DNA of 46,445 nucleotides from Firmicutes bacterium ZOR0006 (GTDB taxonomy: Bacteria; Bacillota_I; Bacilli_A; Culicoidibacterales; ZOR0006), in contig JTLC01000037.1 of NCBI GenBank assembly GCA_000798955.1, positions 36,325-82,769 of the forward strand. Direction: 5' to 3'. This document shows positions 21,385 to 32,588 of the stretch, piece by piece. Below the pieces are notes generated by a model. The model did not search any database. It was given only the letters and a program-made list of their open reading frames with translations, and had not been told where the DNA came from. The number at the start of each line of letters is the position of its first letter. Position 1 is the first letter of the stretch. Both the position numbers and the translations under genes were made by a program.

Positions 21385-23364
21385 CTAATTATTCCCTTTA
21401 TTTTGTTTCATTCGTTTGACAATCAGATATCCACTTATGACAATCCCGATTAGACTCGTCAAAATAATCGGCAGAATTGCTTCCCATTGAAGTGCTTCAA
21501 ATTTTTCAGCACCTGTCGTATTGATGTCAGCTTCAGCTTGTTGAACAACACGGTCATTTTCAAACAGCAAGCTCGCTGCTTGTTGCGGTAAAGTTTCGCG
21601 GCGGTATGCTTGAATAATGTTTTGCATTTCCGCTGGTGTTTGTGCACTTACGATGACAAGTGGCTGCTCCTGTACAAACTGTATCTGGCCAAGATCCGTT
21701 GCGACTTGGACAAATTCTGTTTGATTCACTATTTTCCCATCTGTTGTGAGTGGAAAAAATGTGTTTTGTGTATATGTTTGGAGTGCTGCTGTTGTCGGTT
21801 GACCAATAATCAGCCCTGTTTCACTCGCTTCCGTAATCGTCGTTTCAACTTGTAAATATGCCACTCCATTTGCTGCGCCAGTTAACGTCGTAACAAATTG
21901 AACAAAATCTTCAAGATGCACACTCTCAGGCTCAACTTGAATCATTCCTGCTGCCTGACCAGTCTCATTTTGGAGCACTCCAGCTGCAATGCCGACAAAA
22001 TAATTTGTGCGTGGCTGTGTTGTCAAATCATAAGTACTCTCACTCGCTGACACTTCCGCCCAGGCTTGATTATGTGGGCTAGTTTCACAATTTGAGCTTG
22101 CCACTGTCAACTGAAAACGTAACTGGATTGCCCATTGCCCCTGAGCTGCTAAATCTTCAGGCAACTCGACAGTAATCAACTGTTCGTCTACATTTGGTTC
22201 TAAGTATACTGTGCGTAGTGTCCGATTATTCACACGAATTTCAACAAAAGAATCTGCTTGACTCACAAGTTCACTACTCCGGACGGCGAAAGTAAAGGCT
22301 GCTTGCTTAACTTCTTGACGTAATGGTGACGTCACATAATAATTGAGTGTCTGTTCCCCAATCCCTTGGACTTTTTGTGTCTCATACCCATAGTCTGCGA
22401 AACTTCCTTGTAGTGCCATTGGCTCCATTGCTCGTGGTGCCAATGGCTGCAAGTGATAACTTGATTGTTGAATTTGCTCGGTTACATCAGAAAAGGCTAA
22501 TGTCTCAATTAGTAATTTGAGTTGTTCTGGTGTTTCTGAGCTCAAAAAGAGATACCATTGTTCCCCAATCAACTGATAATGAATACCACCATTCTCAGCA
22601 AATCGTTGGTGTTGATCTTTTTGGTTCGCAAATACCGTTGGAAATTGCTCCTGGATTTGCTCAAGCGTGCCGATAACCACAACCGGCTGTGATTGCTTTG
22701 CTTTCCCCGCTTCAACAATTTTAAAGTCAACATCCTGCCCCAATTTGCGTTGACGTTGTTCGATAACACTAGTAATATTCACTAGTTGCTCATAATTAAA
22801 AGCCGTCATTTCTTTCGGAACAACAAGTGCCACTTCCCCTGATGGTGCCGTCACTTGCTGAAGCCACTGGGCAATCTCTGGTTGCATTACCAACTTGTAG
22901 GTCAGTGCCGAATCACTCGTCAACACAGCCCAGTTGATCTCATCTGTCGGCTCACAAACGAGCTCGGTCGACTTTAAAAAGCCACTAATAGTGATGACAT
23001 TGTCTTGTTTTAATTTTGCTACTGGGATTTCTAGTTTTACCGTTGTTGTTTTGCCAATATTCAAACGTCCCGATGTCAGTGGTTCGCCATTAATTGCCAC
23101 AGTATAAAAGGCGCGTTCTGGTAACAACGTTGGGCTCGTTTGGAAGTTTAATTGTAAACTCATCTGATTAATTTGAGCTCGTTGTGGAATCGTGACGGGA
23201 ATCGTAATTGTTTGTTGACTGTAGAGCGTCTGCTCAGCCAAAGCATAGTTATACGTTTTTTCTATCCCGCGTTCTGTTTGTGCTTGAACCCGATTCAGTG
23301 GTAAGAGCGTCATCAAACAGAGAATGAATATCATCAAACTACTATATTTCCAAAAAATCTTCAT
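21385..23364 (-). CDS. BcsB-like polysaccharide synthase accessory subunit
   Basis: 659 residues from ATG 23364, seven bases after AGGAGG. A signal peptide ends near NRVQAQ, a large extracytoplasmic region follows, and one C-terminal membrane helix (WEAILPIILTSLIGIVISGYLIVKRM) anchors it. The extracytoplasmic part has the BcsB plan of repeated jelly-roll carbohydrate-binding domains, with TVAINGEPLTSGRL and SFVEIRVNNRTLRTVYLEPN, and flavodoxin-like parts (VVVIGTLEQI, QPLVIVSAQT). BcsB guides the nascent glucan out of the synthase. It is the last gene of the operon, 11 bases after the synthase gene. The polymer itself cannot be told from sequence. Confidence 0.85.
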   Translation of the reverse strand: MKIFWKYSSLMIFILCLMTLLPLNRVQAQTERGIEKTYNYALAEQTLYSQQTITIPVTIPQRAQINQMSLQLNFQTSPTLLPERAFYTVAINGEPLTSGRLNIGKTTTVKLEIPVAKLKQDNVITISGFLKSTELVCEPTDEINWAVLTSDSALTYKLVMQPEIAQWLQQVTAPSGEVALVVPKEMTAFNYEQLVNITSVIEQRQRKLGQDVDFKIVEAGKAKQSQPVVVIGTLEQIQEQFPTVFANQKDQHQRFAENGGIHYQLIGEQWYLFLSSETPEQLKLLIETLAFSDVTEQIQQSSYHLQPLAPRAMEPMALQGSFADYGYETQKVQGIGEQTLNYYVTSPLRQEVKQAAFTFAVRSSELVSQADSFVEIRVNNRTLRTVYLEPNVDEQLITVELPEDLAAQGQWAIQLRFQLTVASSNCETSPHNQAWAEVSASESTYDLTTQPRTNYFVGIAAGVLQNETGQAAGMIQVEPESVHLEDFVQFVTTLTGAANGVAYLQVETTITEASETGLIIGQPTTAALQTYTQNTFFPLTTDGKIVNQTEFVQVATDLGQIQFVQEQPLVIVSAQTPAEMQNIIQAYRRETLPQQAASLLFENDRVVQQAEADINTTGAEKFEALQWEAILPIILTSLIGIVISGYLIVKRMKQNKGNN

Positions 23365-23375
23365 GTTATATCCTC

Positions 23376-24686
23376 CTAAAAGCGTTTGGTTTTTTCCCAC
23401 TTAAATTCACGTTTAAACAGCTTATCACCGATAAATGAAACCAGTGCTTGTAGTGAGATAACTAAAAAAAGTTGTGAGTACGTAAAATACGTTATAAACG
23501 ACAATAAAAAGTTTTCAATCGTACTTTGTCCTTTGTCAAAAGCAAGAGCTAAGTTGATTTGTAAAGCATAAATCAGTGCCAAGCAAATCCAAGCTGCTGT
23601 AAAATTCAGATAAATCCGCAAATGGAGGATTTGTGCCAATGTTGGAAAAAATGGTGACAAAATAATCCCTAGAATTCCTGCTAAAAAGAGGATATCGGAA
23701 ATAATAACAGTCAATAAAAACCAAAAATAGGTTGCTGTATAAAAAAACAATTCTAATTTGATTCGCCAGGAATATTCACTACCAAAGAAATGGCGAAAAT
23801 TTTTGACAACAACATAAAAATTGCCTTTAGCCCAGCGTTTCCGTTGTTTCATATAGACAGCTAATGTTTCTGGTTCCTGTTGGTATGCTTCCGAGCGTGT
23901 TTCTAAAGCAATTTTTTTCCCTGCTTGTAAAATTGCAAAACCTAAGTCGGTATCTTCGGTTAAGGCCGCCGTATCCCAGCCGCCAATTTTCTGCAGAAAT
24001 TCCCGTTCGATGATAAAATTTGTACCTGGGATTTGTCCTAAGCGAAATAAAAACCACCGGCCTGTATGGATAATACGCTGACTCACAATCAATTCCAAAT
24101 TAATGCTTTTTGTCAAAAAATTCCGATTACGATTTCGAGCTTTATTGCGCCCATAGACAGCAACATATTCAGTGCTTTCCAAATACTTTAACACAAGTAA
24201 GAGTAATGCATTTTTTTCCGGTGCAGCATCCGCATCATAAATGGCAATTAAATCTGTTGTCACGGTTTCGAGTGCTAGATTTAACGCATGGGCCTTCCCT
24301 TTTCCACCATTCTCAGCTGTGGTTGTCAGCACTTGAAATGGACGCTCCGGAAATTCACGTTGTACAAGGCGTAGTTGTTCACCAGTTTCATCACTCGAAT
24401 TATCATTAATTACCAATAAATGTAATTTATCGGCCGGATAATTCATCCTTAAAATTCTGCGAACAGTTGTGGCAATAACGAGGGCTTCATTGTGTGCTGG
24501 GACAAAAATCGTGACACTTGGTAAATGGCTAGTTTCTGTCGGAATATGTAACGGTTGTCGTTGCTCAACATAGAAGCTCGCAATCGCTCCAACCATTAAA
24601 ACCAGGGAAATAATGACCGAAAACCACATAGAAAACATCACAAATAGATATAAAAGTTCGATAAAATATTGACTAATAACGATCAT
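23376..24686 (-). CDS. processive family 2 glycosyltransferase, BcsA-like synthase without PilZ domain
   Basis: 436 residues. One or two N-terminal helices, then a GT2 catalytic domain: VPAHNEA, D95 in VINDNSSDE, DAD at 151-153, TED at 243-245, and QRKRW at 281-285 (the QxxRW motif of processive beta-glycan synthases). About four helices follow. It should polymerise a sugar nucleotide on the cytosolic face and pass the chain through its own membrane channel to the BcsB-like partner. Unlike proteobacterial BcsA the chain ends just after the helices (FKREFKWEKTKRF), with no PilZ domain for c-di-GMP; that role may lie with the GGDEF-like neighbour. The ATG follows GGAGG and overlaps the previous gene by 14 bases. 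Confidence 0.88.
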   Translation of the reverse strand: MIVISQYFIELLYLFVMFSMWFSVIISLVLMVGAIASFYVEQRQPLHIPTETSHLPSVTIFVPAHNEALVIATTVRRILRMNYPADKLHLLVINDNSSDETGEQLRLVQREFPERPFQVLTTTAENGGKGKAHALNLALETVTTDLIAIYDADAAPEKNALLLLVLKYLESTEYVAVYGRNKARNRNRNFLTKSINLELIVSQRIIHTGRWFLFRLGQIPGTNFIIEREFLQKIGGWDTAALTEDTDLGFAILQAGKKIALETRSEAYQQEPETLAVYMKQRKRWAKGNFYVVVKNFRHFFGSEYSWRIKLELFFYTATYFWFLLTVIISDILFLAGILGIILSPFFPTLAQILHLRIYLNFTAAWICLALIYALQINLALAFDKGQSTIENFLLSFITYFTYSQLFLVISLQALVSFIGDKLFKREFKWEKTKRF

Positions 24687-25434
24687 TTTCTCCTCCGAAT
24701 TTTCTTGCCGTCATAATTCGTGCACTCATAATAACAACAGTGACAGCCACAATCCCAATGGCGAATAACAAAATAATTGACCACGCAAGATTTTCAATTC
24801 CTTCGTAGCGACTCACTGGCTCTAGGTAATGAAATTGTACTGGTACCGTCGCAAGCGGTGTGTAACTATTTTGCACGAATTGAATGATACTCCGATTGAA
24901 AGTATCGGGTTCGATGATGACATACGTCACACCTGTTTCTTGCTTCGGTAATTGGATACTAGCACCGATTTGATCGGACATATGCACTATTGTCTGTGTT
25001 TCACTCATTTGTGGTTCGACAATCCCATTTTCAAAATCAACATAGAATTCAAACGGGAAACGGGCAATTTTCGGTGGTGAAAATAACAATTCTTCAGCTG
25101 ACAATGTTGTTTTCGTTACTGCAAAACGAATACCAGTTTGGTAATACTGTTCAAGCACTTGCAAAGTTTGAAAATTATAGCGAGCTTCAGGATGCAACAA
25201 AATATGCGGCATTAGCTTTTGTGCTATAAGCTCATCCATTTGTTCTTGCAATGTATCAACTGTCGTTGTTGGTTGTAAATGATAAAAAAATTGTACCGTT
25301 TGCTGTGCTGAAACCGGCAACCAATTCAGACAACAAAAACTAATACTCAGGAGTAATATCCACTTCCGTTTGCTTTTGCAACTCCAAGAAAATCTTTTCA
25401 AATTTTTGGAAATCTTCAAATTTGTGTGGTTCAT
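24673..25434 (-). CDS. membrane-anchored extracytoplasmic protein of the exopolysaccharide operon
   Basis: 253 residues of a family I do not recognise. The N-terminus has a basic stretch and a hydrophobic segment (WILLLSISFCCLNWLPVSAQ), read as signal peptide. Residues 45-215 are extracytoplasmic, and one C-terminal helix (WSIILLFAIGIVAVTVVIM) ends in a short basic tail. Position between the receptor and synthase genes suggests an assembly factor of the secretion complex, like the small accessory proteins of the Listeria Pss locus. Start 25434 has AGGGGTG seven bases upstream but overlaps the preceding gene by 95 bases; a later non-ATG start would shorten the signal peptide. Confidence 0.65.
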   Translation of the reverse strand: MNHTNLKISKNLKRFSWSCKSKRKWILLLSISFCCLNWLPVSAQQTVQFFYHLQPTTTVDTLQEQMDELIAQKLMPHILLHPEARYNFQTLQVLEQYYQTGIRFAVTKTTLSAEELLFSPPKIARFPFEFYVDFENGIVEPQMSETQTIVHMSDQIGASIQLPKQETGVTYVIIEPDTFNRSIIQFVQNSYTPLATVPVQFHYLEPVSRYEGIENLAWSIILLFAIGIVAVTVVIMSARIMTARKFGGENDRY

Positions 25435-26215
25435 ACATAATCACCCCTGTTTTTATTGTCGGTTTGAATTTTTTATGATTCCGATCAAAAAGTTCAATCG
25501 TGTCAAAACGCATTTTAATTCGCTCATCAACGACTTGAAAATGTTGCTTCGCCGTTAGGGGCAATACAATCACAAAAGTGCCTTCGGTGACCGTAAATTT
25601 ATAATCTTCAATCCGAATTTCCGACTTGAGGATTTGGGAAATTTCTCGTAATAGCAATTGGTAACTTTGTTGACCAAGTATATTTCGTGTCGTTTCCAGA
25701 AAATCAATTCGCACCATCGCAACGCTAAACGTATAGTGATCATAACGTTTCGCTAAATGGGATTGTTTAATTAACAAGTCAACAAGTGGTTGCAAAGTAT
25801 CGAGTTCTGTTAGCGGATCGACGACGGAGATTTGTGCCGCCTTTTTTTGTAAAGCCAGTAATTGCTTTTGCTCCTTTTGATAACTTTGATGCGTATAAGC
25901 AGCAATAATCGTGATAAACGGCACAAAAAACAACACAAAATAGGCAAAAGCATTCACCGCTTCTGGTACAAAAACGGCAATGCCGATCGCAAATAAAAAG
26001 AATAGACCAATATAAACAAACCCTGCTAAAACACCAAAGAAAAAACCAATGAAACTTCCGAGAAAAATAGCAATCGTCAATAAGAACATATTAAAGGTAT
26101 AACTTTGTGTTTGATAGACAAATAAGTAAATAATTAGTTGGAACATCATGGCACTTAATAAAAACGTCCCCATTCCTAATGGAAATTCTGAATTATTGCG
26201 CTGTTTTTTCATCAT
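25340..26215 (-). CDS. membrane protein with degenerate GGDEF domain, probable c-di-GMP receptor
   Basis: 291 residues. Four or five membrane helices (about 12-110), a short coiled linker (QKEQKQLLALQKKAAQ), then a GGDEF-like domain. The DPLTELDTL start is recognisable, but the GGDEF signature is TEGTF (210-214), so cyclase activity is unlikely. The inhibitory-site motif RxxD is intact as RIED at 201-204, exactly five residues before the signature, as in active and receptor-type GGDEF proteins. PelD and Listeria PssE work this way as c-di-GMP sensors for polysaccharide export. It probably replaces the missing PilZ domain of the synthase. Start is 26215 or the next codon 26212, which has better spacing to AAAGGAG. 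Overlaps the GH8 gene by 23 bases. Confidence 0.8.
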   Translation of the reverse strand: MMKKQRNNSEFPLGMGTFLLSAMMFQLIIYLFVYQTQSYTFNMFLLTIAIFLGSFIGFFFGVLAGFVYIGLFFLFAIGIAVFVPEAVNAFAYFVLFFVPFITIIAAYTHQSYQKEQKQLLALQKKAAQISVVDPLTELDTLQPLVDLLIKQSHLAKRYDHYTFSVAMVRIDFLETTRNILGQQSYQLLLREISQILKSEIRIEDYKFTVTEGTFVIVLPLTAKQHFQVVDERIKMRFDTIELFDRNHKKFKPTIKTGVIMYEPHKFEDFQKFEKIFLELQKQTEVDITPEY

Positions 26216-27356
26216 TTTTCTCCTTTATTGGTTGTGTTTTGGCAACGGCAATCAGCGTTTGCAGTTGATCATAGGCAATCACTGTTTGTGTTTCTGAATT
26301 CCCAAGGGCACCATCTAAAGCGTGCTCTGAATCATGAATTTGATACTGCCAAATTTTCGCAATCGCTTGCTCATATAATTTTTGATTTCCAATTTCCGCA
26401 GCTGTTTGAGCAATGAGGGCGTAGACAGCACTCGATTGTTCAGTAGTGACTGGGGTTCCCGTTGTATCATAATACGCATAGATTGCGTCCTCAATATGCG
26501 CTTCTAGCCAAGCAATTGTCGTCTCATTAATCTGATTAATTTCCGCCAAATGTTTGACGACTAACATCGTTTCAATCATATTAATCGTCGGTTTTTGTTC
26601 TAACAAAAGCGTCTCAACATAAAATTGTTGGTGATAAAAAGGAAAATCATCACTTACGTAACTCTGTTCCACCACCGCTAAACTTTGCTTCCGTAAATCC
26701 GCTAATTGAATTTTCTCGCTCAACGATAATTCCGACTGAAGTGTTTCCAAAGCAGAAAAATCAAGATAACTCAAAAAGAGTGTTGCCGTCTTCTGTTTGG
26801 TCTCATAGTTAAACCCATTTATAATGAAGCCATTATTTGTACCAACACTAAAAAAGTGATCAGCATATGCTTGAATTGCTGGAGTCAATTCAGATGCTAA
26901 CTCCGGCCATTGTTTGCGTGCTAAAATCAATTGCTGGACAATTTGCAAATCATCAATGGTTGCCGTAAAGGGCTCATTTGTATCAAGGTTTCCAGAAATT
27001 CGCCACTGATAATGGCCATTAGGAAGTTGTAAATAGGTTGTTAAAAAATCAAATGTTGTCAAAAATAATGCTTTGTTTTCTGTTAGGCGGGCATATTCTA
27101 ATAATAAGCCTTGTGATTCCGATAAGACTGCATGACCCGTTGTCACAGGATCCGCTTGATTATAGGGCTCATCAAGCCACGTTGTTTTTATTCCCCCAAC
27201 GTGATTCACGAGCTCAGTCAAAACAAATTCTGCCAATTTATCGCTTGCCCCTCTATCAATATTTGCTGTTAATTGTTGCGTCTTTGGCCAATAGATAATC
27301 AAGCCAACTAGCAATAATATAAATAGACCCACATACTTAAATCCCCACTTTTTCAT
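26193..27356 (-). CDS. membrane-anchored glycoside hydrolase family 8 protein (BcsZ/PssZ-like)
   Basis: 387 residues. An N-terminal helix (YVGLFILLLVGLIIYW) is an uncleaved anchor or signal; the rest has the alpha/alpha-barrel pattern of GH8. The likely acid Glu is in HAVLSESQGLLLEYA (about E80), with an Asp pair near 135-136 in TIDDLQIVQQL. GH8 members linked to cellulose and Pss loci cut the polymer being exported and tune its amount. First gene of a five-gene transcript in which nearly all genes overlap. AAGGTGA lies seven bases before the ATG. A TGC-TAAAAT extended -10 (27376-27381) is seen, but it would leave almost no leader, so the promoter is uncertain. Confidence 0.78.
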   Translation of the reverse strand: MKKWGFKYVGLFILLLVGLIIYWPKTQQLTANIDRGASDKLAEFVLTELVNHVGGIKTTWLDEPYNQADPVTTGHAVLSESQGLLLEYARLTENKALFLTTFDFLTTYLQLPNGHYQWRISGNLDTNEPFTATIDDLQIVQQLILARKQWPELASELTPAIQAYADHFFSVGTNNGFIINGFNYETKQKTATLFLSYLDFSALETLQSELSLSEKIQLADLRKQSLAVVEQSYVSDDFPFYHQQFYVETLLLEQKPTINMIETMLVVKHLAEINQINETTIAWLEAHIEDAIYAYYDTTGTPVTTEQSSAVYALIAQTAAEIGNQKLYEQAIAKIWQYQIHDSEHALDGALGNSETQTVIAYDQLQTLIAVAKTQPIKEKNDEKTAQ

Positions 27357-27516: not shown

Positions 27517-28959
27517 TTATGGCCGTCTTCCGCCCGGTTGTGGTCCACTCATCTGATTGCCACTTTCACTGCCATCATTGGTCGTAATCACACCGCCGTT
27601 ATTGGCATATGTACCACTTGCATCAATGGCTGTATTGCCATTTCCAGTACATGTTAGATTGAGCGTGCCACCATTAATCGTCAGAGTCCCATTCGAATCT
27701 AAACTATCACCATCAGACACAACGGTAATTGTCCCATCATTAATCGTAATCGCTGCACCTTCCGTCGTGGCAAAGGGGTCATTGCCACCATTGAAGCCCG
27801 AACCATCCGTTCCTCCACCGGCATTAAAACCATCATCAGTTGTCGTAATATCATAGTCCCCACCATTAACGGTAATTTCGAGCCCTTCAATGCCTTCATA
27901 GGCAGATGGGATGCGAAACATCCCATCGCTTAATAGTACGGCAGCATCAGAGTGAATTGCATCATCACCACTTGTCAAGGTAAAGGTTCCATTACCGATA
28001 GTAATGTCGCCTGCCGCGTGAATGCTATCATCAACGGTATCAATGATGAATTCGCCACTATTAATCAATATTTCTTGCTCACTTTTTAAGCCTTTTTGAC
28101 TGACAGTTTCACTACTTGTTGTCCCACTTCCAGTTGTAAGTGTGTAATTTCCACCCTCAATTTGTAAAAAGCCACTCGTACTGATTGTATCTCCATCCGC
28201 CTGAATCGACATCGTGCCATTTTCCATATAGAAAAATCCTTTTTCAGGATCTGTTGTATGTTCAACTTGAATGCCATCCTTACCACTTGTAATTTGCACG
28301 TCACCATCAGCAATCCGCACACTGTTATTTGCTGAAACTCCGTGATTGGCAGCGGTCACAAGATAGGTCCCACTCGTAAATACAACATCATCTTTCCCAA
28401 CAATCCCGTGCCCTTGGGCAGCATTAATTTTCAAAGTTCCTGATCCGTTAAAGGTAATGTCACTTTTGGCAAAAATAACGCCATCGACATTATTTTCTGT
28501 ATCAGCAACAAAAGCCCCCGTCGTGTTCAAGGTATTAGTAGTCCCAGCTGCCAAGGTAACAAATACCTTATTGGCAGATTTAACATAAATAGGTGCTGTA
28601 TTTTCAGCGGTAATCGTGACATTATTCAGCACAAGTTGTACTTTTTCTGTATCAGCAACATCGATAATCACTTGTCCATCAGTCAGCGTTCCGGACAGAA
28701 CGTAGATTCCTTCTTTATCAATCGTCACATTTTCATTCGCAAGAGTGATTGCCGTCGCATTACTTTCATCATAGCCAATTTCTTTATCCCGTGCAGTAAA
28801 CATTTCATCAGTTGTTTCTTCGGTCGTGCTTTCATCTGGTTCAACTATTGTCGGTGCGGTTTCCGCTCCTTCTAACTGTGACTGATCAGTGTTCGTACAA
28901 GCAGTTAAAAATAATAATAATGCCAGACTTAGTCCTTGAGTAAATGTTTTTTTCATCAT
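27517..28959 (-). CDS. DUF4353 carbohydrate-binding-like lipoprotein
   Basis: 480 residues from ATG 28959 (AAGGAG, six to seven bases upstream). A lipoprotein signal ends LFLTAC with the lipidated Cys at about 21, then an acidic Ser/Thr/Glu linker (about 25-60). The body is built from repeated short strands with Gly, Asn and Asp turns (for example TLKINAAQGHGI, DGIQVEHTTD, GTFTLTSGDDAIHSD, GTITVVSDGDSLDSNG), a right-handed beta-helix pattern seen in DUF4353. The ladder of Asp-rich turns suggests calcium or sugar binding. The tail is Gly/Pro-rich (GPQPGGRRP). It sits on the outer face of the membrane and is the last gene of the VTC operon, ten bases after DUF4956. Binding target not known. Confidence 0.8.
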   Translation of the reverse strand: MMKKTFTQGLSLALLLFLTACTNTDQSQLEGAETAPTIVEPDESTTEETTDEMFTARDKEIGYDESNATAITLANENVTIDKEGIYVLSGTLTDGQVIIDVADTEKVQLVLNNVTITAENTAPIYVKSANKVFVTLAAGTTNTLNTTGAFVADTENNVDGVIFAKSDITFNGSGTLKINAAQGHGIVGKDDVVFTSGTYLVTAANHGVSANNSVRIADGDVQITSGKDGIQVEHTTDPEKGFFYMENGTMSIQADGDTISTSGFLQIEGGNYTLTTGSGTTSSETVSQKGLKSEQEILINSGEFIIDTVDDSIHAAGDITIGNGTFTLTSGDDAIHSDAAVLLSDGMFRIPSAYEGIEGLEITVNGGDYDITTTDDGFNAGGGTDGSGFNGGNDPFATTEGAAITINDGTITVVSDGDSLDSNGTLTINGGTLNLTCTGNGNTAIDASGTYANNGGVITTNDGSESGNQMSGPQPGGRRP

Positions 28960-28969
28960 TATGTTCTCC

Positions 28970-29662
28970 TTATAGTTCATTAGTCACCGTTTGCAGCGGT
29001 GAAACTGTGATTTCCAAATTTCCATTTCGAACTCGAAGCTCATCAATAAAAGCTTTTTCATCTTCAGCCTTCTTCAACGTAATATTGTAGGTAATCTTAA
29101 AGAGACTCCCTAAATTTGTCGTTTTCACACGAGTGATTGTATGTTCTGTTGTGTATTGATCCATCACGTCATCAAAGATTGTTGTGTAGTTTAAATCTTC
29201 TGGAATTGTCACTGTTAATGTTTTATCGAGCGGTTTTTTATTTTCACCAAAATTACTCTGGTTATAAATAAAATTAATCACCGATACGATAATCGTAAAC
29301 AATACCGCATACCCTAGGTATCCCATACCAAGCATTAATCCCGCACCCATTGCAATAAAAATGGCGCCGATTTCTTTAGCCGTACCTGGTACACTTCTAA
29401 ATCGTACGAGTGAAAAAGCACCCGCAACGGCAACACCCGTACCGAGATTACCATTGACCATAAGAATAACAACACAGACGATAACTGGCAAAGTTGCCAG
29501 GGTGACAATAAAGCTTTTAGAAGCATGATTCTTGTAGGCGTAGACCAGGGCAAGAAAAAATCCAACTCCTAAAGAAACGCCGACACAGAGCAGAAAATGA
29601 GTGAGTGAAATTGTTGGGGTTAAAGTTGAATCGAAAATTCCTTGAAATAAATTAAAAGACAT
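28970..29662 (-). CDS. DUF4956 membrane protein
   Basis: 230 residues. About four N-terminal helices (20-135) frame the family hallmark AGAFSLVRFRSVPGTAKEIGAIF, a basic loop with conserved Arg residues between helices. A soluble C-terminal domain (about 140-230, VTIPEDLNYTTIFDDV ... FKITYNITLKKAEDEKAFIDEL) looks like a small ferredoxin-like fold. No function is established to my knowledge. It follows the VTC gene by 10 bases, and in many bacteria the two families occur together, so it may be the membrane partner or conduit of the VTC enzyme. Confidence 0.85.
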   Translation of the reverse strand: MSFNLFQGIFDSTLTPTISLTHFLLCVGVSLGVGFFLALVYAYKNHASKSFIVTLATLPVIVCVVILMVNGNLGTGVAVAGAFSLVRFRSVPGTAKEIGAIFIAMGAGLMLGMGYLGYAVLFTIIVSVINFIYNQSNFGENKKPLDKTLTVTIPEDLNYTTIFDDVMDQYTTEHTITRVKTTNLGSLFKITYNITLKKAEDEKAFIDELRVRNGNLEITVSPLQTVTNEL

Positions 29663-29672
29663 ATTTTTTTAC

Positions 29673-30368
29673 CTACTTTCTTGTGCGTATTGCTTTGTAT
29701 GTATTTCCATATTTGGAAAATGATGTTTTATAAATATTATGTGCTGTCAGAAATTGGGTCAGCCACAGTGGAATCCCTCCAGCAACTTTCACTTCCATCA
29801 AGGCCATATCCTCATGAATGAGTCGATTCCCATATTTTTGACTATTCAGACTCAGTTCCTCATCTCGCCAAACAATATTTTCATCAAATGTAATTCGCAC
29901 CTCGGAATCATCGATAGCAAAAAATGCTTCACGATCATAGGCGATAAAGACTCGTGGTGCAATTCCCGTATATAGCGTTTTAAAATAGTTGATTTCTTTC
30001 GCAATTTGCGTTTCTGGCAACAAATATGTTCCCGTAAAATATTGGCTTGCCTCTTTAGCCGATAGTGATAGTCTCCGCTTATAGACAACAGCTTCATATT
30101 TTTTCTTTAATTCTAAAAATACTTCTGTATCGTCATCCGCTCGACCATAACTGCGAAGTCGCAACTTTTCTTTATAGACAGCTGGCTTTTCGATACTGCG
30201 GCGGATGATGAGAAAATCTGGGGTATCATAGTAGATATTGAAAATACTATTTTTCCCAAATTCATCTGGGCGCATACGATTTTTAAACAGTTCTAATAAT
30301 GCCTCTTTTTGGCTCTTAGTAATAAAATATTTCAATTCATAACGTTTGAACGTCGTTTTGGGGTTCAT
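29673..30368 (-). CDS. VTC-domain protein, polyphosphate polymerase-like
   Basis: 231 residues, a single VTC domain of the CYTH/triphosphate-tunnel type. Tunnel strands are visible in order: RYELKYFIT, FNIYYDTPDF, YKEKLRLRSYG, VFLELKKKYEAVVYKRR, RVFIAYDREAF, VRITFDENI, MALMEVKVAGGIPLW, and SFSKYGNTYKA. The alternating Lys/Arg and Glu residues are those that hold phosphate and metal in yeast Vtc4, which makes polyphosphate from ATP. The SPX domain and membrane anchor of Vtc4 are absent; DUF4956 may provide membrane contact. Whether the bacterial protein makes polyphosphate or transfers phosphate elsewhere is open. Start has GGAGG eight bases upstream; first gene of its operon. Confidence 0.87.
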   Translation of the reverse strand: MNPKTTFKRYELKYFITKSQKEALLELFKNRMRPDEFGKNSIFNIYYDTPDFLIIRRSIEKPAVYKEKLRLRSYGRADDDTEVFLELKKKYEAVVYKRRLSLSAKEASQYFTGTYLLPETQIAKEINYFKTLYTGIAPRVFIAYDREAFFAIDDSEVRITFDENIVWRDEELSLNSQKYGNRLIHEDMALMEVKVAGGIPLWLTQFLTAHNIYKTSFSKYGNTYKAIRTRK

Positions 30369-30399: not shown

Positions 30400-30431
30400 A
30401 GTATATTCTCTGAACCTAAAATTTACTTAAA
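30400..30431 (-). promoter_or_regulatory. promoter of the VTC operon with CiaR-like direct repeat
   Basis: TTTAAG (30431-30426), TAAAT, TTTAGG (30420-30415), nine bases, then the -10 TATACT (30405-30400). The same layout stands before the response regulator gene. No usual -35 at 17 bases, which fits an activator-dependent promoter. Confidence 0.7.
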
Positions 30432-30450: not shown

Positions 30451-30484
30451 AAAAAAAGCAACCTTCTCAAAGGCTGCTTTTTGT
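30451..30484 (-). terminator. terminator of the two-component operon
   Basis: AAAGCAGCCTT, loop TGAG, AAGGTTGCTTT then a T run (one wobble pair). It is about 90 bases after the kinase stop. An inverted repeat TGAAGTCAT/ATGACTTCA (30539-30547 and 30571-30579) spans the kinase stop codon as well. Confidence 0.8.
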
Positions 30485-30565: not shown

Positions 30566-31780
30566 CTATAAAATGACTTCAACCGTAATTGCTTTGCCAT
30601 CGTTGCTCTTTGCCGTGATTTTCCCTTTATGTTTTTCAACAATTGATTTTGCGAGTGCTAACCCAATACCAAAACCTCCTGTTGCGGAATTTCGTGATTC
30701 ATCTTTGCGATAAAAACGATCAAAAAATTCATTGTGCTTGCCGATTTCAAGTTGTTCGACTGCATTCGTCACAGTCAGTGACACCTTATCATGCTTACGC
30801 ACAAGCGAAAAATGAATTTCACCATTTTCCACCGAGTATTTAAATGCATTATCTAATAAGATGTAACAAAGTTGACTCAACGCCTGTTCGTTTCCAGTAT
30901 AAAAAACATCCGTTTGGATCTCAGCGACAAAATGTTTCTGCGAGTTAATTGCGAGACCTTGATAGCTTTCGGAAACCATCTCACATAACTGTGATAAATC
31001 AAAACTTTCTCGGACTAAATTATCAGTTTCTTCCATACGTGCGAGAGCTACTAAGCGATTAACAAGTTCGGTTAACCTTCCGACTTGTTCCTTCGAATTT
31101 TTCGTCCACTTACTTTCTCCTGCTCCCATTTCAATAATATCTAAATTTGCGGAAATAACCGTCAATGGCGTTTTTATTTCATGCGACGCATTCGTAATAA
31201 ACTTTTTCTGTTTATCATATGCTTCTATAATCGGCTTAATCGCAATCGCGGAAAGAAAGTAAGAAATCACTGCTACTAGCAGCAATGCTACTAACGAAAG
31301 CAAACTATTTGTCGTGACAAAGCGGATGAGTATATCCACATCTTTCGCAGCATCGACGAATATAATACTATCTGTACCATTTATCGTCGTATGTAAAAAT
31401 TTATACCCATCGATAAAACCTGTCTCTTGTCCTCGTGCCAAAACTGCTCCAGCATATTCTTGGGCTTCTTGCGAGCTTGTCGCATAAATATTTCTTGTAT
31501 CCGTTGCTAAAATTTCATTTTGATTGCCCAGATAGACAATAAAGTATCTTGTATCAAATATGGCTTCTCGTGGGAGGTTATCTAGCTCTCCTGGTCGTTC
31601 TTTTCCACCAGGCTTAGGCAAGGTACCTCCATTATCGGCTATCAAATTGACGAGTTGATCGGTCCTTTGGTCTAAATCAAGATAATTCCAAAAACTTGTA
31701 CTCACAACCATCACAAACAACATACAAAAGACCGAAATCGTTGAAACGAGCACAAATTTTTGTTTGAGCTTATTGACCAT
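30566..31780 (-). CDS. sensor histidine kinase of the OmpR-type two-component system
   Basis: 404 residues from ATG 31780 (GGAGG six bases upstream). Helix 1 at about 9-31, an extracytoplasmic sensor of about 125 residues, helix 2 at about 160-182, then the phospho-acceptor box NASHEIKTPLT (His about 200). The ATP domain has the N box (LLDNAFKYS) and a G2 box (GGFGIGLALAKSIV). The G1 box is altered: where DxGxGI is expected the chain reads VTNAVEQLE, then FFDRFYRKDESRN. Some kinases of Firmicutes share this form, so activity is still likely. Overlaps the regulator gene by about 11 bases. Confidence 0.9.
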   Translation of the reverse strand: MVNKLKQKFVLVSTISVFCMLFVMVVSTSFWNYLDLDQRTDQLVNLIADNGGTLPKPGGKERPGELDNLPREAIFDTRYFIVYLGNQNEILATDTRNIYATSSQEAQEYAGAVLARGQETGFIDGYKFLHTTINGTDSIIFVDAAKDVDILIRFVTTNSLLSLVALLLVAVISYFLSAIAIKPIIEAYDKQKKFITNASHEIKTPLTVISANLDIIEMGAGESKWTKNSKEQVGRLTELVNRLVALARMEETDNLVRESFDLSQLCEMVSESYQGLAINSQKHFVAEIQTDVFYTGNEQALSQLCYILLDNAFKYSVENGEIHFSLVRKHDKVSLTVTNAVEQLEIGKHNEFFDRFYRKDESRNSATGGFGIGLALAKSIVEKHKGKITAKSNDGKAITVEVIL

Positions 31781-32453
31781 CAAGAACCTCCAATGTATAA
31801 CCTAAGTTACGAACAGATTTAATCTTCACATTAGATTCTAGATTTTCTAATTTTTTACGAACTGCTGACAAATGAGCCCAGACGACATTGATTTCACTAT
31901 CGCTATCATAACCCCAGATTCGCTCCATAAACTGTTCAGAAGCGATATACCTCCCCTGATTGCGGAAAAGAAGTTCTAATAATTGATATTCTTTATTGGC
32001 GAGTGGTAGTCTTCCTTTTGCAGTCGCGACTTCGTAAGTAACACGGCTCAAGATTGTATTACCTACTTGTAAATCAGATGTTAATTCTTCCTTTTCGCGC
32101 CGTGTCATCGCTCGAATACGAGCAAGGAGTTCTTTGGCAGCAAACGGTTTGGTCAAATAGTCGTCAGCGCCACTATCGAGTCCTAATACCTTATCATCCA
32201 CTTCACTCTTGGCGGTCAGCAATAAGATTGGTGTTTTATTTTTATTGGCTCGTAACGTTTTTAATACGGAAATTCCGTCCACTTTTGGGAGCATAATATC
32301 TAAAATGACCCCATCATAAGCGCTATCACTCATTAAATAATCAAGTGCCTCCTGCCCATCAAAAACAGTATCTACCGAGTATTTGTTCAAGGTTAAAATT
32401 TCTGTTAACGCCTCAGCCAGTGCTTTTTCATCTTCAACAACTAATAAACGCAT
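31770..32453 (-). CDS. OmpR-family response regulator
   Basis: 227 residues. The receiver domain (1-120) has acidic residues E7/D8, the phospho-acceptor D52 in VILDIMLPK, Thr in LLLTAK and Lys in LTKPF. The C-terminal winged helix (130-225) ends KIKSVRNLGYTLEV, and the recognition helix includes INVVWAHLSAVRKKL. Members of this family bind direct repeats; such repeats lie before this gene and before the VTC operon, suggesting autoregulation and control of the polyphosphate-like operon. It is not a close match to CiaR by eye although the boxes are similar. Confidence 0.92.
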   Translation of the reverse strand: MRLLVVEDEKALAEALTEILTLNKYSVDTVFDGQEALDYLMSDSAYDGVILDIMLPKVDGISVLKTLRANKNKTPILLLTAKSEVDDKVLGLDSGADDYLTKPFAAKELLARIRAMTRREKEELTSDLQVGNTILSRVTYEVATAKGRLPLANKEYQLLELLFRNQGRYIASEQFMERIWGYDSDSEINVVWAHLSAVRKKLENLESNVKIKSVRNLGYTLEVLDGQ

Positions 32454-32481: not shown

Positions 32482-32513
32482 ATACTATCAATTGTACTTA
32501 AATTCTACTTAAA
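32482..32513 (-). promoter_or_regulatory. promoter of the two-component operon with CiaR-like direct repeat
   Basis: TTTAAG (32513-32508), TAGAA, TTTAAG (32502-32497), nine bases, then a -10-like TAGTAT (32487-32482). Matches the spacing of the site before the VTC gene. Confidence 0.7.
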
Positions 32514-32544: not shown

Positions 32545-32588
32545 AAAAAAATAAGAGGCTACCTCGTTTGCACACGAGACAGCCTCTT
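32545..32588 (-). terminator. terminator of rel-dtd
   Basis: AAGAGGCTGTCTCGT and ACGAGGTAGCCTCTT pair on the minus strand, followed by ATTTTTTT; it stands right after the dtd stop. Confidence 0.88.

Follow-up and report, generated by a model that had tools for sequence, protein, structure and literature searches.

The closest described systems are CiaRH of the streptococci and its homologue BAS0540-BAS0541 of Bacillus anthracis. CiaR recognizes a direct repeat, TTTAAG-N5-TTTAAG (PMC3091779), which is given for S. mutans as NTTAAG-N5-WTTAAG (PMC8317062). In the CiaR csRNA consensus, the third T, the second A, and the final G have been reported as invariant in both half-sites (PMC3091779). Purified BAS0540 binds NTTAAG-N5-TTTAAG sites, its own promoter included, and is predicted to control 23 annotated genes; the main text of that report mentions polyphosphate and VTC nowhere (PMC4938410). 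In Gram-positive bacteria, VTC-DUF4956 gene pairs have been described among the accessory genes of pel exopolysaccharide loci, in a report whose main text nowhere mentions a two-component system (PMC7112168).

The window considered here is a stretch of 46,445 nucleotides of Firmicutes bacterium ZOR0006, whose genome (G000) comprises 1.97 Mb. It carries an operon in which the genes of an OmpR-type response regulator (31770-32453) and a HisKA kinase (30566-31783) overlap, and a second operon consisting of VTC, DUF4956, and Cthe_2159-type genes, the last with its likely start at an ATG at 28959 or 28956, past AGGAG. Given the terminator-like hairpin between the kinase and VTC, the VTC gene probably needs its own promoter. 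An earlier note on this DNA had described one shared element upstream of both operons, and its reading is correct to the base: the VTC promoter has TTTAAG-TAAAT-TTTAGG, nine bases, and TATACT (30431-30400, minus strand), and the regulator promoter has TTTAAG-TAGAA-TTTAAG, nine bases, and TAGTAT (32513-32482, minus strand). Repeat, N5 spacing, and distance to the -10 thus agree, as TTTAAG-N5-TTTARG lies nine bases before the -10 in both cases, the spacers being TTCAGAGAA (VTC) and TACAATTGA (regulator). The two boxes are 2.1 kb apart and each is followed by a gene start 43-46 bp downstream.

Table. Coordinates of the regulator-kinase and VTC operons and of their promoter elements in the window
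Feature	Position	Strand	Basis or remark
Cthe_2159-type carbohydrate-binding protein, gene 3 of VTC operon	27517..28980	-	Pfam Cthe_2159, 312 bits
DUF4956 membrane protein, gene 2 of VTC operon	28970..29662	-	Pfam; behind VTC in most loci
VTC-domain protein, 231 aa, probable polyphosphate polymerase	29673..30368	-	Pfam VTC, 143 bits
-10 element TATACT, VTC promoter	30400..30405	-	nine bases past box; kept in sister species
CiaR-type direct repeat, VTC promoter	30415..30431	-	TTTAAG (30431-30426)-TAAAT-TTTAGG (30420-30415); unchanged in sister species
Terminator-like hairpin and T run, kinase/VTC gap	30453..30482	-	-15.3 kcal/mol, z -3.8
Sensor histidine kinase, partner of the regulator	30566..31783	-	Pfam HisKA and HATPase_c
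OmpR-type response regulator, 227 aa, presumed binder of both boxes	31770..32453	-	Pfam Response_reg and Trans_reg_C
-10 element TAGTAT, regulator promoter	32482..32487	-	nine bases past box
CiaR-type direct repeat, regulator promoter	32497..32513	-	TTTAAG (32513-32508)-TAGAA-TTTAAG (32502-32497); kept in sister species
Terminator-like hairpin, gap between dtd gene and regulator promoter	32553..32588	-	–

The element had been called a CiaR-like box, a designation that holds for the direct repeat, the N5, and the place, but less well for the protein, which is of a sister clade and shares 38% identity with CiaR. Other regulators of the same genome are nearly as good against CiaR (147, 145, and 140 bits), and the sequence used for identity, scores, and tree is taken by us to be that of CiaR. 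In the tree, it groups with sequences of G002/f17 (100/99), the clade of the window's regulator lies outside, and both fall inside a 97/88 superclade. By this topology, the window's regulator is a sister of CiaR and not its orthologue.

As in streptococcal CiaRH, the direct repeat with N5 is found just upstream of the -10, the regulator is of the OmpR type, and the system is apparently autoregulated: the autoregulatory site NTTAAG-N5-WTTAAG is present before the -10 of the regulator promoter (TTTAAG-TAGAA-TTTAAG, nine bases, TAGTAT). The VTC site departs from the invariant CiaR positions in its second half, TTTAGG, where the second A is replaced by G. Within the CiaR-like clade, the autoregulation box was read in few loci only. 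Some of the system's relatives have htrA beside the kinase, whereas the window's own genome has neither an htrA box nor a large regulon, and the main target would be the VTC operon, which was not found among the listed CiaR targets. HtrA is a main target of CiaR, but the regions upstream of htrA in this genome, in its sister species, and in G002 all lack the box, and htrA was consequently rejected as a target in the window's genome. In nine loci (L007, L018, L020, L031, L035, L042, L051, L071, and L083), a trypsin-like HtrA gene is found close to the regulator-kinase pair, and some of the HtrA genes so placed have a box, recalling the CiaRH-htrA link. When csRNAs were considered, a scan limited to sites with a -10 at up to one mismatch, and hence to the stronger promoters, gave three genome-wide, each before a protein gene. 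With BAS0540-BAS0541, the system shares its nature as a CiaRH homologue outside the streptococci and its NTTAAG-N5-TTTAAG sites, own promoter included, and differs from it in regulon, with 23 predicted genes there, as far as a comparison by description goes. Judged from sequence, the window's system works like CiaR and belongs to a sister family, so that its element is best named a CiaR-type box of a sister family.

Conservation is most telling among the near relatives. In the sister species (G001, the nearest relative; L004 is the same contig), alignment of the intergenic regions shows the 32 bases that span box and -10 to be identical at 29/32 positions for VTC and at 31/32 for the regulator, the remaining aligned intergenic bases being identical at 58/125 and 44/100, respectively (~45%). 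The 22-mer TTTAAGTAAATTTTAGGTTCAG is unchanged there, letter for letter. The G001 contig breaks directly past the VTC promoter (L004 8480-8584; L250 1-80), and an inverted repeat made up of AAATTGGACCAAA and TTTGGTCCAATTT lies at the two contig ends, a sign that the VTC leader of that species may harbour a mobile element. G002 belongs to a different family of the same order. It has a perfect box, TTTAAG-CCTCT-TTTAAG-N10-TATACT, upstream of a VTC-DUF4956-Cthe_2159 operon (from a locus box scan that included this VTC gene, with L148 and L151 left out), and its CiaR-like regulator has TTTAAG-GTTGA-TTTAAG-N10-TAAACT at its own promoter; a regulator of the window's type was not found in G002 at E 1e-50.

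The comparison was extended to eighty loci with regulators 57-86% identical, mostly from Clostridia together with one Carnobacteriaceae and one Erysipelotrichaceae member. In 41 fetched loci, the regulator has a VTC gene no more than a few kb away, which runs in either direction and in most cases is followed by DUF4956 and then Cthe_2159. Unseeded motif discovery, run separately on 100 regulator and 35 VTC upstream regions, yielded the same repeat and -10, with a log-likelihood ratio of 766 in the regulator set (141-155 in shuffled sequence) and 341 in the VTC set (103-108 in shuffled sequence). Counted at up to two mismatches with TANNNT at 8-11 bp, box and -10 occur together in 56/98 regulator promoters and 21/35 VTC promoters, as compared to 23/635 control regions taken upstream of the remaining ORFs in these loci, a background that is if anything overstated because some of these matches are regulator or VTC genes with another start codon, and to at most 1 in shuffles. 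The distance from box to -10 peaks sharply at 9 and 10 bp. In the second half-site, G replaces the second A in 10/76 regulator sites and 8/28 VTC sites, and TTTAGG can thus be regarded as a tolerated variant. Co-variation between the two boxes of a locus is no more than marginal (p about 0.05), and some VTC genes directly abut the preceding gene and have no space for a box. Several VTC promoters of the Ruminococcaceae type (L044, L052, L056, L064, L057, and L069) present TTTCAG-N5-TTTCAG or mixed repeats, and the regulator promoters in those loci have a different first half-site. The distant loci are related by descent, hence not independent, and it is the sister-species and G002 comparisons that carry weight. 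Dozens of gut bacteria that are only distantly related have the boxes at these two genes, and the link between regulator and VTC looks like a real, widespread regulatory one and not like chance.

Taken as a whole, these observations are best explained, with a probability of roughly 80%, by a local regulator that would bind both boxes and drive both operons. What speaks against it is the related box of a paralogous regulator in this genome, together with the marginal co-variation of paired boxes, the deviating Ruminococcaceae promoters, and the VTC genes that leave no space for a box. The earlier note had considered autoregulation and direct control of the VTC operon very likely, and the sister-species footprints, the perfect VTC box of G002, and the independent motif discovery bear it out: both now appear strongly supported in silico. 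In mechanistic terms, we infer that the response regulator (31770-32453) recognizes the direct repeat and, when phosphorylated, would sit as a head-to-tail dimer on its two half-sites, one DNA turn (11 bp) apart. Counted from the -10, these half-sites would cover about -38 to -33 and -27 to -22 and replace the missing -35. The bound regulator would recruit RNA polymerase to its own promoter, giving autoregulation of regulator and kinase, and likewise to the promoter of VTC-DUF4956-Cthe_2159. The kinase presumably senses an envelope signal, and the output would be a membrane-linked VTC polymerase module together with a surface carbohydrate-binding protein.

The earlier note had also offered the pattern as a means of finding the rest of the regulon, with the proviso that it should not be common at random in an AT-rich genome. 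It is not, as exact TTTAAG-N5-TTTARG has 3 matches in 1.97 Mb, two of them the window sites (the reversed control pattern has 9). With TANNNT nine bases on, the two window sites are the only matches in 1.97 Mb at up to one mismatch; two mismatches give twelve matches, of which nine are inside ORFs and one more is not followed by any gene start over the next 200 bp. The genome scan could thus be run, but it returned one further exact site only, and the rest of the regulon would accordingly be small or degenerate. A large regulon was rejected on the grounds that no third site exists at up to one mismatch with a -10 at N9, that reversed controls are commoner, and that two-mismatch matches are mostly intragenic. 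An operon of MFP, ABC, permease, regulator, and kinase genes (G000:C2:71756; L243 1343-5942) has an upstream box-like site with a high matrix score, at 3 mismatches and with the operon's own regulator nearby.

The third exact site (C27:3412-3444, N10) lies ahead of three genes, coding for an ABC ATPase, an FtsX-type permease, and a protein that matches no Pfam family, and in the sister species the same N5 is found upstream of an FtsX-like permease, ~5 kb from a paralogous regulator. At its own promoter, this paralogue, a member of the same superclade, carries a related box, TTTCAG-GTTCA-TTTCAG, with TACAAT following after ten bases (L221, G000:C7:23270-23302), and the FtsX-type transporter site may therefore belong to the paralogous system. 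Such a promoter also lends some substance to the idea that the boxes are real and that a different member of the superclade, for instance the paralogue (G000:C7:23333), reads the VTC box, alone or jointly with the local regulator, as does G002, where a perfect VTC box occurs without a local-type regulator and is presumably read by the CiaR-like one. We consider this unlikely, as the half-sites differ (TTTAAG versus TTTCAG), both window boxes have N9 and the paralogue's site N10, and the VTC operon accompanies the local-type regulator in about 40 loci.

Slightly less probable still is that the regulator occupies both sites and represses the VTC operon, or acts oppositely at the two promoters. 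A sigma-70 scan found a -35/-10 pair at neither the VTC nor the regulator promoter, which fits dependence on an activator bound in the -35 place, and a box in that position combined with the missing pair is the layout of an activated promoter; the direction is thus probably activation. That the two boxes agree by mere chance in AT-rich DNA, where the pattern alone at up to one mismatch is unremarkable and expected about once per window (2 found versus 1.1), can be dismissed, given how rare it is genome-wide together with a -10, the sister-species footprints at both promoters, and the independent recovery of the motif and its counts in distant loci.

As for what a locally acting regulator would control, the VTC domain (PF09359) scores 143 bits against a cut-off of 23, and the predicted fold (pLDDT 87.5) finds its best structural match in yeast Vtc4 (E 3e-12). 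E11, K13, R70, R72, K88, K90, R146, E192, K194, and K219 are invariant in nine VTC homologues, and we take these basic and acidic residues to be those of the Vtc4 active site (tunnel). The window's protein keeps the basic tunnel residues of Vtc4 and, unlike it, is a stand-alone domain of 231 aa with ~22% identity and no SPX domain. Stand-alone bacterial VTC proteins have, to our knowledge, little assigned function; fold and residues make the present one a probable polyphosphate polymerase, and polyphosphate the presumable product of the operon. Behind the VTC operon lies an EPS-synthase-like operon (21385-27356, minus strand) that encodes a 387-aa protein without a Pfam match, a GGDEF protein, a 253-aa protein, a GT2 enzyme (PgaC/cellulose-synthase-like), and a BcsB-like protein, and that the sister species lacks at the orthologous position. 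Its control by the box was rejected in view of that absence and of a weak TTCACA-N5-TTCAGC look-alike as the only candidate site. A polyphosphate-polymerase-like gene and a DUF4956 module beside exopolysaccharide genes recall the Gram-positive pel loci (VTC/CotH/DUF4956, PMC7112168), whereas the window is without CotH or pelDEADAFG among the proteins scanned and has Cthe_2159 as the third gene.

Beyond this genome, it is likely that a two-component system of the clade sister to CiaRH directly controls VTC-DUF4956-Cthe_2159 through TTTAAG-N5-TTTARG in Clostridia and several Bacilli lineages, a regulon of which no description was found in the literature searched. The findings suggest that the CiaR box belongs to a wider superclade of regulators, and a TTTAAG-N5-TTTAAG site alone is therefore not assignable to CiaR. 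If the proposed control holds, an envelope-sensing type of system would be tied to a bacterial VTC polymerase and a surface-polysaccharide module, and the conserved neighbouring regulator with its exact promoter element would provide a handle on when, and in response to which signal, VTC is made.
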